Shown piece after piece: positions 7,045-26,560 of a stretch of DNA of 26,905 bases (positions are counted from its first letter, which is position 1; each line of letters opens with the position of its first letter). The stretch is taken from positions 1 to 26,905 of IMG/VR virus record IMGVR_UViG_3300021432_000093. One strand, written 5' to 3'. The stretch comes from a virus. The position numbers and the translations under genes were made by a program. The notes under the pieces were generated by a model. That model worked only from the letters and a program-made list of their open reading frames with translations, had not been told where the DNA came from and did not search any database.

Positions 7045-7245
7045 CTACGGAACTTTCACAACTACTATTTGTCTCTCCGGCTTCGCATGCACCGATGCGG
7101 TTGGTTTCGGAGCGTCAAGTATAAAACTTCGGCTTGCGCTCGGATCGGAAGCTCGATCAAAAATAGGTTTCGAAGCTTTCTCGGGCGGTACATACGGATC
7201 ACTAAAGAACGGGTCCCAGTCAGGACGATACGTTTCGTAGCCCAT
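7045..7245 (-). CDS. Small hypothetical protein after the portal gene
   Basis: 66 residues starting MGYETYRPDWDPFF. ATG at 7245 is preferred over the TTG three bases upstream: the portal stop and the ribosome-binding site GTGAGGA precede it by a good distance. The product is proline- and aspartate-rich at the start (DPFFSDPYVPPEK) and ends with a short strand QIVVVKVP; it is probably largely unstructured. It fills the space between portal and the next gene exactly, which supports it being real. Function unknown. Confidence 0.6.
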   Translation of the reverse strand: MGYETYRPDWDPFFSDPYVPPEKASKPIFDRASDPSASRSFILDAPKPTASVHAKPERQIVVVKVP

Positions 7246-20479: not shown

Positions 20480-20916
20480 TTGATGCTCGATACTGCGAAA
20501 TTCAAAATTGCTCGAAAGCCCGATTGTTCAAAATTTTGGGCTAGCTCAGCCGGGCGGCGAGGCGTCATGGGGGCTCCCCCACCCCCTCATAAGTTCCTGA
20601 AAGAATGCTTCTTAAAGCCGCACAGAATCAGCAGCTTGCGCAAGTCATTGATAACACACGAGAAAACAACTTGGGATTCGGTCCTCGACTTGCTATGGGG
20701 CCAGCGGAACATGCGAGGCGCGGCGGCAACCGCTGCAATCGCAAAGACTTGCACGGACCGTGACGGACCGCGCTGAAATTAAACTCTTTGGAATCAATTG
20801 GTGCAATCAGCCGGTCGCTGATTGTACTTTTGCAAGTGCTTTATTTGCCGGCACTTACCATTTCTCATATCGCGTAACGAAAACTCACATCGAAATCGTC
20901 ACGGTGATTGATCGAG
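20480..20916 (-). other. Long gap with stacked hairpins, no convincing gene
   Basis: 437 bases with no well-supported coding frame on either strand. It contains an AGCCC/GGGCT stem (20516-20543), a GGGGGCTCCCCC hairpin (20570-20581), the near-palindrome CACGGACCGTG (20752-20762) and an 8-10-bp stem CAATCAGC-CGGTC-GCTGATTG (20802-20826) followed by CTTTT on the plus strand. Next to it is an AAGTGC/GCACTT stem (20834-20856). A 55-codon minus-strand frame (GTG start near 20755) reaches the poly-G run, but it lacks a ribosome-binding site. A structured non-coding RNA or control element is possible. Confidence 0.45.
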
Positions 20917-21123
20917 CTAGACCTTCGAATGCAGAACTAATCGCGCCCGATGATCGTCTTCGTCTTCAGGAGGCAGATCAGCAACCGGAATAATCTTGTC
21001 GTATTGTTTCCCATCACACTCGACAACACCACAATAGAAATACACCGTGTCAGCAATTCGAACCAATTCACCGCGCTCTAAATTCAAATCTTCGAGCAAC
21101 ACATCGCCAGTGAGTCGCTTCAT
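20917..21123 (-). CDS. Small acidic hypothetical protein
   Basis: 68 residues starting MKRLTGDVLLEDLNLERGELVRI. The ATG overlaps the upstream stop by ATGA. There are beta-like segments (TVYFYCGVVEC, IIPVADLPPEDEDD) and an acidic stretch, then LVLHSKV. The repeated LERGELVRIADTVY pattern is reminiscent of small SH3-like folds, but no family is recognised. It is the last gene before the long structured gap. Confidence 0.55.
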   Translation of the reverse strand: MKRLTGDVLLEDLNLERGELVRIADTVYFYCGVVECDGKQYDKIIPVADLPPEDEDDHRARLVLHSKV

Positions 21124-21368
21124 TTTGTTTCTGCTTCCCAGACGCCATTCTTGAGAACTTCAAAGCGTCGCTGGTCGATATTCCATCGCCGCGATCCACT
21201 CGTGCGCGCCGGAGCCATTCCGATACGCGAGCTTGAATCAGTCGAAGCAATTGCGCTCGCTTCAGACTCAGCTGCTAACGTATCCAACGTGAATGACCTT
21301 GGCTCTTTCGAAACCTGACTGCGATCTCCCCATATATCTGTGCTGCGTGGATCAACTGAACTTGGCAT
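21120..21368 (-). CDS. Small polar hypothetical protein
   Basis: 82 residues, Ser/Arg-rich and probably mostly unstructured (SSVDPRSTDIWGDRSQVSKEPRSFTLDTLAAESEASAIASTDSSS). It has an ordered-looking end, WNIDQRRFEVLKNGVWEAETK. The junction with the following gene is ATGA. There is no signal, membrane or metal motif. Not recognised. Confidence 0.55.
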   Translation of the reverse strand: MPSSVDPRSTDIWGDRSQVSKEPRSFTLDTLAAESEASAIASTDSSSRIGMAPARTSGSRRWNIDQRRFEVLKNGVWEAETK

Positions 21369-21380
21369 ACTTTCCTCGCT

Positions 21381-21944
21381 TCACTTCTTATTCTTTCTCT
21401 TCAAAATCTCTTGAGCTTCGCGCCACTCGATAGACTCGCCTTTGTGCGCGTCACAACAGTCATCCCAATCCACTTTGTTGTCTGACTTCTCCATCACATT
21501 ACAGACGCCGTCAACACCTTTGCCATCGGTCACAACGAAATGTTCACAAGGCGCGCCGCCATCGTAGCCGCCACAATTTGTGCCCGGCCCTTTCGCCCAT
21601 TCGAGTCCTGCTTGATCTGCTTTGTCTGGACCTTGCAGCGTTGAATTATAGATCGCTTCATCATCAGCAACAACGCGAGGCAATCCACCATTCTGATAAA
21701 TACAAACTGGTGTGTAACGCTCGCCGCCTTTCGTCACGCTATCGATGATGATATCCGGCCCGATAATCTGACAACGCTTTTGATTGATATAAAAGTTCGG
21801 GCAGTTGAAACAACTCTTCGGTTGATTCTTCGTGTCCTTGCCACCAACCCAACCAAGAGCCCAGCGCTCAATGCCGCTTTCTATCTTCACAAGCCGCGCT
21901 GCGCGACTCGTTCGAATCTCTTCGAGTGTCTTAGACATTGTCAT
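21381..21944 (-). CDS. Cysteine-rich protein with HiPIP-like or zinc-like Cys spacing
   Basis: 187 residues. C45, C48, C58 and C81 give C-x2-C-x9-C-x22-C followed by IYQNGG, similar to phage proteins whose Cys spacing resembles high-potential iron-sulphur proteins. Further cysteines occur in GTNCGG, APCEHF, GVCNVME and DDCCDAH. The N-terminal 30 residues are a charged helix (SKTLEEIRTSRAARLVKIESGIERWALGW). The start is either 21944 (ATGA overlap) or 21938 with GGA 6 nt upstream. A metal cluster is likely, but its identity cannot be read from sequence. It directly follows the zincin gene. Confidence 0.55.
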   Translation of the reverse strand: MTMSKTLEEIRTSRAARLVKIESGIERWALGWVGGKDTKNQPKSCFNCPNFYINQKRCQIIGPDIIIDSVTKGGERYTPVCIYQNGGLPRVVADDEAIYNSTLQGPDKADQAGLEWAKGPGTNCGGYDGGAPCEHFVVTDGKGVDGVCNVMEKSDNKVDWDDCCDAHKGESIEWREAQEILKRKNKK

Positions 21945-22393
21945 TCCAGAGGCTTGAAGATAGGCCGATCAATTCCTGTCATCGCGTGAGCTAGTGAATC
22001 AGCTTTCAATTCTGATTTGCATTCGCATATCATGTGCCCGGCCTCATGGCCTAACACAAAGCGAACCTGCGCGTCAGATGCCCACACGAGAAAATACTCG
22101 TTGATGTACGTGTGATCTGAATCGAGAAACGTAAACGCAATTGACGTTTGAACTTTGTTATCGCGGACGTATTTCTCGAACTGATCCTGCGGCCAGATCG
22201 TGACTTCCCAATTGTCTACCATCGCTTGCTTGGTGAAGTCTAACGATTGCTCTGCGTGAATAACCCGCAGCTGTTCATAAGTCGTTGAGCCATTCACTGT
22301 GAATCGTGTCGGCGCTGCGGCACCTAATACAATTGCCAGCGTCAGAATCAGAACACCAAGTATGCCAGCCAGTGCCCACGAATTCAGTTTCAT
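21941..22393 (-). CDS. Membrane-anchored zinc metallopeptidase (HExxH)
   Basis: 150 residues. Residues 6-27 are a single hydrophobic segment (WALAGILGVLILTLAIVLGAAA), a signal anchor or uncleaved signal peptide. HEAGH at 116-120 is the zinc site, and E128-x2-AD-x2-A eight residues later supplies the third ligand, as in small zincins with an HExxH ... ExxAD pattern. The middle (LDFTKQAMVDNWEVTIWPQDQFEKYVRD) is alpha/beta. It is probably exported or periplasmic-facing. It overlaps a membrane microprotein upstream and the Cys-rich gene downstream. The substrate is unknown. Confidence 0.75.
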   Translation of the reverse strand: MKLNSWALAGILGVLILTLAIVLGAAAPTRFTVNGSTTYEQLRVIHAEQSLDFTKQAMVDNWEVTIWPQDQFEKYVRDNKVQTSIAFTFLDSDHTYINEYFLVWASDAQVRFVLGHEAGHMICECKSELKADSLAHAMTGIDRPIFKPLE

Positions 22394-22530
22394 GACCAGA
22401 ACGCCCTTCGCCGAAGCTCATCGTCAAGCTCAGCCTTGAACATTCGCACATGACGCCGCATTGTGATGTAACGCGCAACGCGCCACGACACAATTACCAA
22501 CGCAGCGAACAATAGGCCGATGATTTTCAA
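22390..22530 (-). CDS. 46-residue single-pass membrane microprotein
   Basis: TTG start at 22530, 14 nt after the upstream stop, with a weak GCGAGCGC site. The TGA overlaps the zincin ATG by ATGA, so the two are probably co-translated. The product starts with the hydrophobic run KIIGLLFAALVIVSW and continues with a very basic amphipathic tail (RVARYITMRRHVRMFKAELDDELRRR). Short protein with one membrane helix next to a membrane zincin; a partner or regulator of it is possible. The lack of a strong ribosome-binding site lowers confidence. Confidence 0.5.
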   Translation of the reverse strand: MKIIGLLFAALVIVSWRVARYITMRRHVRMFKAELDDELRRRAFWS

Positions 22531-22544
22531 AACTTGCGCTCGCT

Positions 22545-22796
22545 TTAGAAGCTGTCTTTCTTGTCGGTTTCCATCGATTCGCTAGGCCCAACCGGTCCAC
22601 CCGTAGGCTTACGAACCTGCTTGGAACCACCGCGATTCAACACGTCAGCATCCATCGGATTCAAAGACGTGTAGCTCGCCCAGTCACGGGCCACGCTGGG
22701 ATCACTCGAAAGTTCCTCAGTCGGATAACCCTCGGCGAGAATTTTAGGCTCGACCGGAGTAAAATCCCGTGCGCCCTGATCATGTGACTTGTGCAT
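22545..22796 (-). CDS. Small polar hypothetical protein
   Basis: 83 residues, starting MHKSHDQGARDFTPVEPKILAEGY; ATG 22796 has GAGGAGAAATACA upstream. The chain is rich in Pro, Ser, Gly and charged residues (SSDPSVARDWASYTSLNPMDADVLNRGGSKQVRKPTGGPVGPSES), with no predicted membrane or metal site. Probably flexible. Not recognised. Confidence 0.55.
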   Translation of the reverse strand: MHKSHDQGARDFTPVEPKILAEGYPTEELSSDPSVARDWASYTSLNPMDADVLNRGGSKQVRKPTGGPVGPSESMETDKKDSF

Positions 22797-22811
22797 TGTA
22801 TTTCTCCTCAA

Positions 22812-23087
22812 TCAGAACCAACTCAAATCGTAAACTGGCGGCTCATCGCTGCCCTGTCCGTTTTGTGCATCGACGCCATGAGATTCAACACCTTGCTCAT
22901 CGCCATTCTGCTCAACCGGAACAATCTCGTTTGCCAGAGCATCGAGGTGATTAAACTCGTCCTCGATATCCAGCACTGTGTCAACTGCGTCTGCGAAATC
23001 TTCTTTGAGATCGCTGATCACATTCACAACATCTTCGGATAACTCAACGTCCGATTCAATCGTCACTGCCCACGTGTAAGTGAACAT
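22812..23087 (-). CDS. Small acidic hypothetical protein
   Basis: 91 residues, very acidic (VELSEDVVNVISDLKEDFADAVDTVLDIEDEFNHLDAL, then a Gly/Asn/Gln/Asp-rich tail ending PPVYDLSWF). The first strand MFTYTWAVTIESDV and the following helices suggest a small alpha/beta fold. The ATG overlaps the upstream stop (TAATG) with GGAG nearby. Acidic early-late junction proteins of phages are often DNA mimics or inhibitors, but no such family is recognised here. Confidence 0.55.
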   Translation of the reverse strand: MFTYTWAVTIESDVELSEDVVNVISDLKEDFADAVDTVLDIEDEFNHLDALANEIVPVEQNGDEQGVESHGVDAQNGQGSDEPPVYDLSWF

Positions 23088-23810: not shown

Positions 23811-23955
23811 GTGGCTGCTCGGTTTACCACTGGGGTTTCGAGACACCGGCCACAGCGATGTTTTGATCCTTACGCTTCCGCGCCGGATCGCTCTAGTATT
23901 GCCGAGATATCTTGAGAGGTCTGCTCTCTCCATTAAAGGCGAAGCTTACACCCCG

Positions 23956-23993
23956 AATTTCGTAACATGGCGTCTGCGATGTGGTGACACAAT
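23956..23993 (+). repeat. Partial copy of the control-region repeat beside the late promoter
   Basis: AATTTCGTAAC (23956-23966) and GGTGACACAAT (23983-23993) repeat the two ends of the large inverted-repeat arms, but in the opposite order. The GGTGACACAAT copy lies about +2 to +12 of the predicted late transcript, where a repressor would block initiation. A further GGTGACA lies at 24009-24015 in the promoter spacer. Confidence 0.5.
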
Positions 23994-24001
23994 GTGGTGG
24001 C

Positions 24002-24029
24002 ATTATAAGGTGACAGCTTCGGGTGTCAT
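24002..24029 (-). promoter_or_regulatory. Predicted sigma-70-type promoter of the late operon
   Basis: On the minus strand ATGACA (24029-24024) and TATAAT (24007-24002) are separated by 16 nt. The -10 box is perfect and the -35 box matches 5 of 6 bases. Transcription would start near 23995 and run into the membrane-protein gene. Called by eye; not computed. Confidence 0.55.
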
Positions 24030-24058
24030 GTAAGAACTTCTAATCCCTTTATATAATA

Positions 24059-24094
24059 GGGAGCGTTACGAAAATGACCTCGGATTGTGTCACC
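24059..24094 (-). repeat. Left arm of a 36-bp inverted repeat
   Basis: The minus strand reads GGTGACACAATCCG, then a 5-bp variable middle, then ATTTTCGTAACGCTCCC. It matches the right arm (24215-24250) in 33 of 36 positions in inverted orientation. The match continues outwards for ATAAT with a one-base bulge. The motif's conserved ends also occur at 23956-23993. Confidence 0.8.
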
Positions 24095-24214
24095 CGCAGC
24101 CAGTGGGTGTTTATGTCTATTAAGAAAACTACTCAGTATGCTATGTAAATAATATACAGTAAAGGACTTAAAGGTAGATTTCTGGATTTTTCTCTCCCTT
24201 CACCTCCGCCCGCT

Positions 24215-24250
24215 GGTGACACAATCCGGGGGTATTTTCGTAACGCTCCC
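24215..24250 (+). repeat. Right arm of the 36-bp inverted repeat
   Basis: The plus strand reads GGTGACACAATCCG, middle GGGGT, then ATTTTCGTAACGCTCCC. The two arms face outwards from a 120-bp AT-rich core (24095-24214). Possible readings are binding sites of a regulator, a replication origin, or terminal repeats of a small element. Confidence 0.8.
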
Positions 24251-24320
24251 ATTATTCAATGAGGACATTGTATAGCACCTTTATGTTGTTTCAAAGCATC
24301 TCATCATATAGGGACGTGCC

Positions 24321-24353: not shown

Positions 24354-24650
24354 ATGAAACTCGGAACGCTTAAAGTGCAGGCAGCGAAATTTCGATTACC
24401 TTGTGTCTACGAATATATTGACGCAAAAGGAGAACGGTTGTATGTGGGATACTCACGCACGGGAATGCGTCGAGCTTTCACGCCGGGGATATCCCGCGAG
24501 CAGCCGGGCCGCTATGCCTCGTTTTTCGAAGTGGAGACCATTCGTGTGACTGTTTACGACGATGCCCGTGAAGCTGCCCAAGAAGAATCTCGGTTAATTG
24601 CTTTGTATAAACCAAGATACAATAGGGCTCCGGCTGTCACTCTGACTTAG
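24354..24650 (+). CDS. Stand-alone GIY-YIG nuclease-domain protein
   Basis: 98 residues, close to a single GIY-YIG module. CVYEYIDAKGERLYVGYS at 17-34 holds the two strand motifs (CVY and YVG for GIY and YIG), R39/R40 the conserved Arg, E78 the metal-binding Glu, and LIALYKPRYN at 81-90 the C-terminal Asn motif. It lacks a homing-endonuclease DNA-binding extension, so it may nick DNA structure-specifically or act in replication or exclusion. ATG 24354 has GGAGG 5 nt upstream. It is the first gene on the early side of the control region. Confidence 0.8.
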   Translation: MKLGTLKVQAAKFRLPCVYEYIDAKGERLYVGYSRTGMRRAFTPGISREQPGRYASFFEVETIRVTVYDDAREAAQEESRLIALYKPRYNRAPAVTLT

Positions 24651-24868
24651 CCTTTGGCACGCCCGCCTCCGGCAATCCTGCCGATCTATATCTCGATCAG
24701 GAGCGCCTCAGACCGGCCTGCGCAATCTCACCGTATTCGTCCCAACAATCTCACCAGACTACCCTATCTATCGTGCATTCTGCCCCGGATCGCTGCCGTT
24801 GCCTATTATACGATGCGCTGGCGGTGTCGTCGGTCGCCGTCATCCGCGAGGTGTCCGCGTTCGCTGAC

Positions 24869-24960
24869 ATATGAGATTTCATATATTTGGGTATATTCTA
24901 CCCAATCTATGAGATTCGGGAGTCCGCAGGCTGCGGAGATTACCGGGCTCATTCTCCGCA
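24869..24960 (+). ncRNA. Row of hairpins with mutually exclusive pairing
   Basis: ATATGA-GATT-TCATAT (24869-24884) is followed by TTGGGTA-TATTC-TACCCAA (24887-24905). Then TCCGCA (24923-24928) can pair with TGCGGA (24932-24937), or TGCGGAG can pair with CTCCGCA (24954-24960); the two pairings exclude each other. This resembles attenuator-type switching in the transcript of the GIY-YIG gene. Confidence 0.4.
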
Positions 24961-26192: not shown

Positions 26193-26528
26193 ATGGATAA
26201 CTTCGAAATCGGTCAGCAGGTTCGGGCTCGATTCACCAACAGCCACCGCGTATTTGAATTCACTGGCAAGATCGTCGGCAAGACGAAAAACTATTGGAAG
26301 GTTGAGGCGATCACGTCTCCATACCCGCAGGAACAGCCGGGTCGCGTCTTCCACATTGCGACACTTGGATCGCGCACTTACAGCCCGAACAATCAAATCG
26401 TCGGGATAGATCGCGTCTGGGCGCAGCAGAATGGATGCAGCGGCGATATGGAGATAAACGGATCGGAGGAAATGGCATTCCACGTGCAGGGGAATAGCTG
26501 GAATCGAAAGCTCTGGCTACGAAATTAA
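26193..26528 (+). CDS. Early hypothetical protein with SH3-like N-terminus
   Basis: 111 residues from ATG 26193, which has AAGGAGG 9 nt upstream and follows the previous TAA by one base. The N-terminal part (FEIGQQVRARFTNSHRVFEFTGKIVGKTKNYWKVEAI) has the strand pattern of small SH3/Tudor-like folds that often bind nucleic acid. The rest (RVFHIATLGSRTYSPNNQIVGIDRVW) is also strand-rich, and the end GNSWNRKLWLRN is basic. No family recognised. The longer in-frame extension lies inside the previous gene and is rejected. Confidence 0.65.
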   Translation: MDNFEIGQQVRARFTNSHRVFEFTGKIVGKTKNYWKVEAITSPYPQEQPGRVFHIATLGSRTYSPNNQIVGIDRVWAQQNGCSGDMEINGSEEMAFHVQGNSWNRKLWLRN

Positions 26529-26531
26529 GTG

Positions 26532-26560
26532 TTGACACTGCCGGGGCAATTTTGTAACAT
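26532..26560 (+). promoter_or_regulatory. Sigma-70-type early promoter P2
   Basis: TTGACA (26532-26537), 17-nt spacer, TAACAT (26555-26560). The transcript should start near A26567 with AUGGAGGGCAACUGAUG. This contains a possible 4-codon leader peptide (M-E-G-N-stop) overlapping the gene's ATG 26581. The leader is nearly the same as that of P1. Confidence 0.75.

Follow-up and report, generated by a model that had tools for sequence, protein, structure and literature searches.

An inverted repeat with two site types in the divergent control region of an uncultivated phage: a candidate replication origin

In the origins of SaPIs (staphylococcal pathogenicity islands), an AT-rich region has iterons on either side. 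The initiators SaPI Rep and SCCmec Cch2 bind their iterons through a C-terminal domain (PMC7581432), and in the PLE satellites, which use a RepA_N initiator, the DNA-binding part of that protein and the origin are reported to change together between relatives (PMC8263062). Short asymmetric repressor sites of another kind, the operators and stoperators of the Cluster A mycobacteriophages, lie in gaps between genes as well as at early promoters (PMC9283540). The locus analysed here belongs to an uncultivated soil virus of bacteria. The window, i.e., the whole stretch of DNA that was analysed, is a single viral record with a length of 26,905 bases. Few uncultivated tailed phages have a known origin, and this locus offers a precise candidate with defined sites and a candidate initiator.

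The locus resembles SaPI-type origins in that repeats flank an AT-rich region and in that a phage-like element has its own primase-helicase, a gene that lies outside the window and was located in the related record G001. As in SaPIs, a C-terminal domain may read the repeats, although here the protein is only a candidate. On the other hand, the sequences differ from those of SaPIs, the arms are long composite inverted repeats that include a second type of site, and the candidate origin is located in a divergent control region instead of directly downstream of the rep gene (in G001 the element occupies 1961-2152 and the primase-helicase gene 20657-23047). The likeness to the PLE satellites is that the helicase half of the protein and the repeats both differ between lineages; unlike in PLE, the analysis identified no RepA_N protein, the change is in the C-terminal part, and the co-change, judged from three phages, is only suggestive. 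One of the two site types, A, is comparable to the stoperators in its short asymmetric form and its location, but its sequence is different, it has few copies, and no related repressor was identified.

The inverted repeat and its relatives

Convincing genes to the left of 23.9 kb read leftward and include those of a terminase, annotated from remote matches, and of portal-like and capsid-like proteins, names that come from reading the sequences by eye. To the right of 24.35 kb convincing genes read rightward, and the gap between these opposed blocks is occupied by the inverted repeat. A preliminary description had called it a mirror-image element around a 120-bp AT-rich core. The symmetric arms are real, but they form an inverted repeat and not a mirror repeat, and the AT-rich part is limited to about 24109-24196. 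The 36-nt arms lie exactly where they had been placed (24059-24094 and 24215-24250) with 33 of 36 positions pairing; those that do not pair are two G-T and one A-G. The ATAAT extension with its one-base bulge is also present. The pattern is confirmed as real: ungapped it scores 27, and none of 30 dinucleotide shuffles exceeded 12; with gaps it scores 63, and 200 shuffles reached at most 24. Extended without gaps, the arms reach 48 nt at 83%:

24059-24106, + strand: left arm of the inverted repeat, ungapped extended form
24203-24250, + strand: right arm of the inverted repeat, ungapped extended form

A terminase search yielded twelve related loci, and all terminase matches in genomes and named phages were remote. 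Searching viral contigs with the arm pattern returned a single record, the close relative G001 (IMGVR_UViG_3300050821_003477, 44.5 kb), which, like the window, is incomplete. The whole element is present there at 86% identity, in the same position and orientation. G001 was also the sole match when the arms, the outer left arm and the core were scanned against the whole collection. The arm pattern had no match in species genomes, the element had none in phage and plasmid DNA collections, and no additional copies were found within related records.

The divergent region is also found in a more distant relative, G005 (IMGVR_UViG_3300021420_000022, 92 kb), and in G008 (IMGVR_UViG_3300012359_000028, 82 kb), whose gene orders agree with that of G001; collection scans with the flanking proteins gave no control regions beyond these two. 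The expectation that relatives would carry the same arms at this place held for G001 and failed in the distant relatives. G005 has in the same gap a 33-nt inverted repeat (79%) of different sequence, with a score of 31 against a maximum of 23 in shuffles, and its repeat units, GGTGCCACAATGTC, are related but different. The G008 control region has no significant inverted repeat by the shuffle test, and gapped inverted arms that had been seen there by eye were rejected by the same test. The B motif of G001 and its counterpart in G005 are partly alike (GGTGACAC vs GGTGCCACAAT; 2 of 200 shuffles were as good), while the control regions of G005 and G008 are not clearly alike (12 of 200 shuffles were as good).

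Two site types and their conservation

Each arm includes one A (TTTTCGTAAC) and one B (GGTGACACAAT), at a constant distance of 9 bp. The sites, promoter-like sequences and core of the window are as follows:

23958-23966, + strand: solitary A site, exact match to TTTCGTAAC, upstream of the leftward (late) genes
23983-24028, + strand: B array, GGTGACA, GGTGGCA, GGTGACA and GGTGTCA at 23983, 23996, 24009 and 24022, period 13 bp; the first three spacings were computed, the fourth copy (24022) was read by eye
24002-24029, - strand: sigma70-like sequence, candidate late promoter, ATGACA-16-TATAAT inside the B array; 11/12 in a consensus scan, a level at which chance gives about one such site per region; poorly kept in G001
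24052-24057, + strand: TATAAT, rightward -10-like sequence directly outside the left arm, without a good -35
24065-24073, - strand: A site of the left arm, match to the TTTCGTAAC-type motif
24084-24094, - strand: B site of the left arm, 9 bp from the 10-bp A; the length of the spacer is kept in G001, its sequence is not
24114-24195, no strand: AT-rich core of 82 bp, candidate melting region, 97.6% identical in G001; the least stable 80-bp window of the record begins at 24111
24215-24225, + strand: B site of the right arm, motif match
24236-24244, + strand: A site of the right arm, motif match
24267-24294, - strand: sigma70-like site from the consensus scan, TTGAAA-16-TACAAT, reading into the right arm; only the -10 is kept in G001
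26516-26560, + strand: early promoter, TTGACA-17-TAACAT, with degenerate A sites at 26516-26524 (-) and 26550-26558 (+), inverted and 34 bp apart

The arm-end motifs recur nearby, as had been noticed: TTTCGTAAC at 23958-23966 and GGTGACACAAT at 23983-23993, the latter being the start of the B array beside the left arm. G001 has one B pair spaced by 13 bp and a third GGTGACA at 1909. The outer A sites are 171 bp apart in both phages. The concern that the arms might be one repeat family scattered through the genome was not borne out, with exact B sites (GGTGACAC in G001) confined to the control region and A found elsewhere at early promoters; TTTCGTAAC is enriched in G001, where it occurs 7 times against 0.48 expected. 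Beyond the control region, A lies over the -10 in two early promoters with the structure TTGACA-17-TAACAT. The promoter at 26532 in the window and the one at 7221 in G001, which are non-orthologous, each have a second inverted A-like site 34 bp off (7205/7239 in G001).

Against a background of 82% identity at fourfold-degenerate sites, the comparison of the window with G001 gave a footprint of distinct blocks. The -10 and the outer left arm are identical (31/31, 24045-24075), the left spacer has no identical position in eight at unchanged length, the left B is intact (11/11), and the core is identical at 80 of 82 positions. On the right, the inner arm plus B is 87% identical, the spacer 50%, and A with its flank 98%. 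The solitary A with its flank is identical at 12 of 12 positions, the next 14 bp at 21%, and the stretches adjoining this A at 21-61%. This pattern reads as one of separate, precisely spaced binding sites rather than one uniformly conserved hairpin, and because of it we take the B copies to be putative binding sites.

Two other repeated sequences were found. G001 has four copies of GGCTTACCCCTCGA, at 1843 (+), 12446, 12846 and 31333 (-), one of which abuts an A site; two lie in or beside a gene that, read by eye, appears to encode an HNH/endonuclease VII-type nuclease. A TATGAGATTTCATATA-type sequence, possibly an operator, is located upstream of the first early promoter (24864-24918) and is also found in G001 and G005.

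The core, the candidate initiator and the origin reading

By nearest-neighbour stability, the least stable DNA of the whole record falls on the element at window sizes of 80, 120 and 200 bp alike, both in the window and in G001. In G005, ranks one and two of the 80-bp windows are in the control region, rank two exactly between its arms, and in G008 rank one is in the control region. Divergent phage promoters are AT-rich in any case, which counts against reading this as an origin. In all four records the cumulative GC skew has its minimum off the element, 2.0-2.2 kb from the control region towards the early genes, and gene direction alone can produce such a skew. The maximum is far from the control region in the two largest records. 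The skew is compatible with a nearby origin, although gene direction is a confounding factor. Near the element, the window showed no DnaA-box-like match. The core also includes an 11-codon frame, MSIKKTTQYAM (24116-24151, +), whose DNA is identical in G001; it could encode a leader peptide.

Among the genes of the early block are those of a Prim-Pol primase-helicase and a phage DNA polymerase. The window ends before the primase-helicase gene, and therefore the argument about the initiator uses the G001 gene (20657-23047), where the Prim-Pol match has an E value of 6e-21 and the DUF3987 helicase match is weak. The N-terminal half of the protein is similar in G001, G005 and G008. In the C-terminal half, G001 shares 24-40% identity with G005 and G008, which are 55-91% identical to each other. 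When such excess divergence was ranked over 115 windows from 26 shared proteins, the top nine were all in this half. These comparisons suggest that the helicase and the presumed origin-recognition part were exchanged, or diverged rapidly, in a lineage whose repeats also differ. That initiator and sites changed as a pair is only suggestive because the B motifs of G001 and G005 are partly alike and the control regions of G005 and G008 are not clearly so. A winged helix at the C-terminus is a tentative reading of the sequence by eye; the structure predicted for the protein has a pLDDT of 36, too low to bear on it, and a PDB profile search with the primase-helicase gave no match. For site A the candidate is an early HTH protein (G001 30924-31340) that, like its G005 relative, weakly resembles sigma region 4; searches with it gave insignificant matches only, several of them to sigma region 4 domains. 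Another early protein of G001 (L028, 13766-15373), of 535 amino acids, begins with a weak Fis-like HTH match and strongly matches PHROG 1745, 'DNA transfer protein'.

The preliminary description had named three possibilities: a replication origin, a regulatory switch and a captured miniature inverted-repeat element. The comparison across genomes supports a protein-bound control site, within which an origin is somewhat favoured over a transcriptional switch; the switch may still be correct, and the miniature element found no support. By analogy with the SaPI, SCCmec and PLE systems we propose the origin, and consider the chances that the element is a replication origin within the divergent control region to be about even. 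As at iteron origins, repeated and presumably bound B sites, in the arms and in a tandem array, surround the AT-rich core, and the adjacent segment has low duplex stability in both phages. A period of 13 bp is short for iterons and counts against this reading, as does the lack of a significant inverted repeat in G008. In the proposed pathway, a phage initiator, probably the early Prim-Pol/DUF3987 primase-helicase, would use a domain of its C-terminal half to bind B in the array and the arms. With initiator bound on both sides, the AT-rich core would melt and two replication forks would be loaded. A second phage protein would use the A sites of the outer arms as operators and also sit over the -10 of early promoters, which would tie early transcription to initiation. 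The sequences themselves show the anatomy and its place between the gene blocks, the conservation and fixed spacing of the sites, the low duplex stability, the sharing of A with early promoters and the divergent C-terminal half of the candidate initiator; we infer every protein-DNA contact, as well as melting, fork loading and which protein is the initiator. A bolder version, which we consider rather unlikely, is that the composite arms, each joining an initiator site to an early-promoter operator at a fixed distance, assemble one nucleoprotein complex that couples origin firing to early transcription, the sites having been swapped together with the helicase half by module exchange. Since the relatives keep the layout and change the sequence, origin recognition and its exchange between phages are directly testable.

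Alternative readings and neighbouring sequences

The main rival to the origin is a transcriptional switch without replication function, a distinctly possible explanation. A repressor or activator bound at A and B would loop or coat the 171 bp between the outer A sites and control the convergent promoters of the arms together with the late and early promoters. The constant outer spacing in both phages agrees with it, as do the enrichment of A in G001, its place over early -10 sequences in inverted pairs 34 bp apart at two non-orthologous promoters, its location where transcription from the conserved TATAAT at 24052 would be expected to start, and the presence of an early HTH protein resembling sigma region 4. 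This explanation does not account for the absence of exact B from other promoters, nor for a core that is long, nearly invariant and the least stable of the record. A lysogeny switch in particular is unlikely because neither a CI-type HTH_3 repressor nor an integrase of either recombinase family was detected, the window and G001 both being incomplete records.

The strong symmetry could alternatively serve at the RNA level, a transcript across the element forming a long functional hairpin, structured or antisense. The fold of the 205 bases as RNA, suggested as a check, is indeed strong on both strands (z = -8.2 for + and -10.8 for -), and -10-like boxes point inward on both flanks. The pair-by-pair check against G001 was mixed: three adjacent stem pairs are changed on both sides and still pair, but at four others a change on one side only has broken the pair, and G001 lacks the middle of the stem. 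The conservation of A and B is that of a protein footprint, and Rfam returned only weak matches to plant microRNA hairpins, far under the gathering scores, so that we consider the hairpin improbable. Recombination between the arms might also flip the core, and promoter-like sequences between long inverted arms are what an invertible segment would have. The orientation is nevertheless the same in the window and G001, and the Phage_integrase (tyrosine) and Resolvase families had no match in five records, two of them large, which leaves inversion very improbable. Still harder to credit is a captured miniature inverted-repeat element, whose long terminal inverted repeats around about 100 bp it does share. 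It is unsupported because the element is at the same place in G001, no other copy was found in related records, and the phage, plasmid and species-genome searches gave no match. No flanking target-site duplication is apparent in the sequence, and the arms hold conserved putative binding sites with freely varying spacers.

Two features adjoin the element. On the late side, the late transcript begins with about 100 bp (23815-23916, -) that are 98% identical in G001 and 89% in G005. The 175-aa frame that the window has over this segment is broken in G005, and the segment may be a conserved leader RNA or encode a short peptide in another frame; in a fold of the three sequences stems appear, but they hardly vary. 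On the early side, a small GIY-YIG nuclease gene (24354-24650, +) is absent from G001, and at its position G008 has a 192-aa frame without a Pfam match, which may mark an insertion hot spot by the presumed origin.
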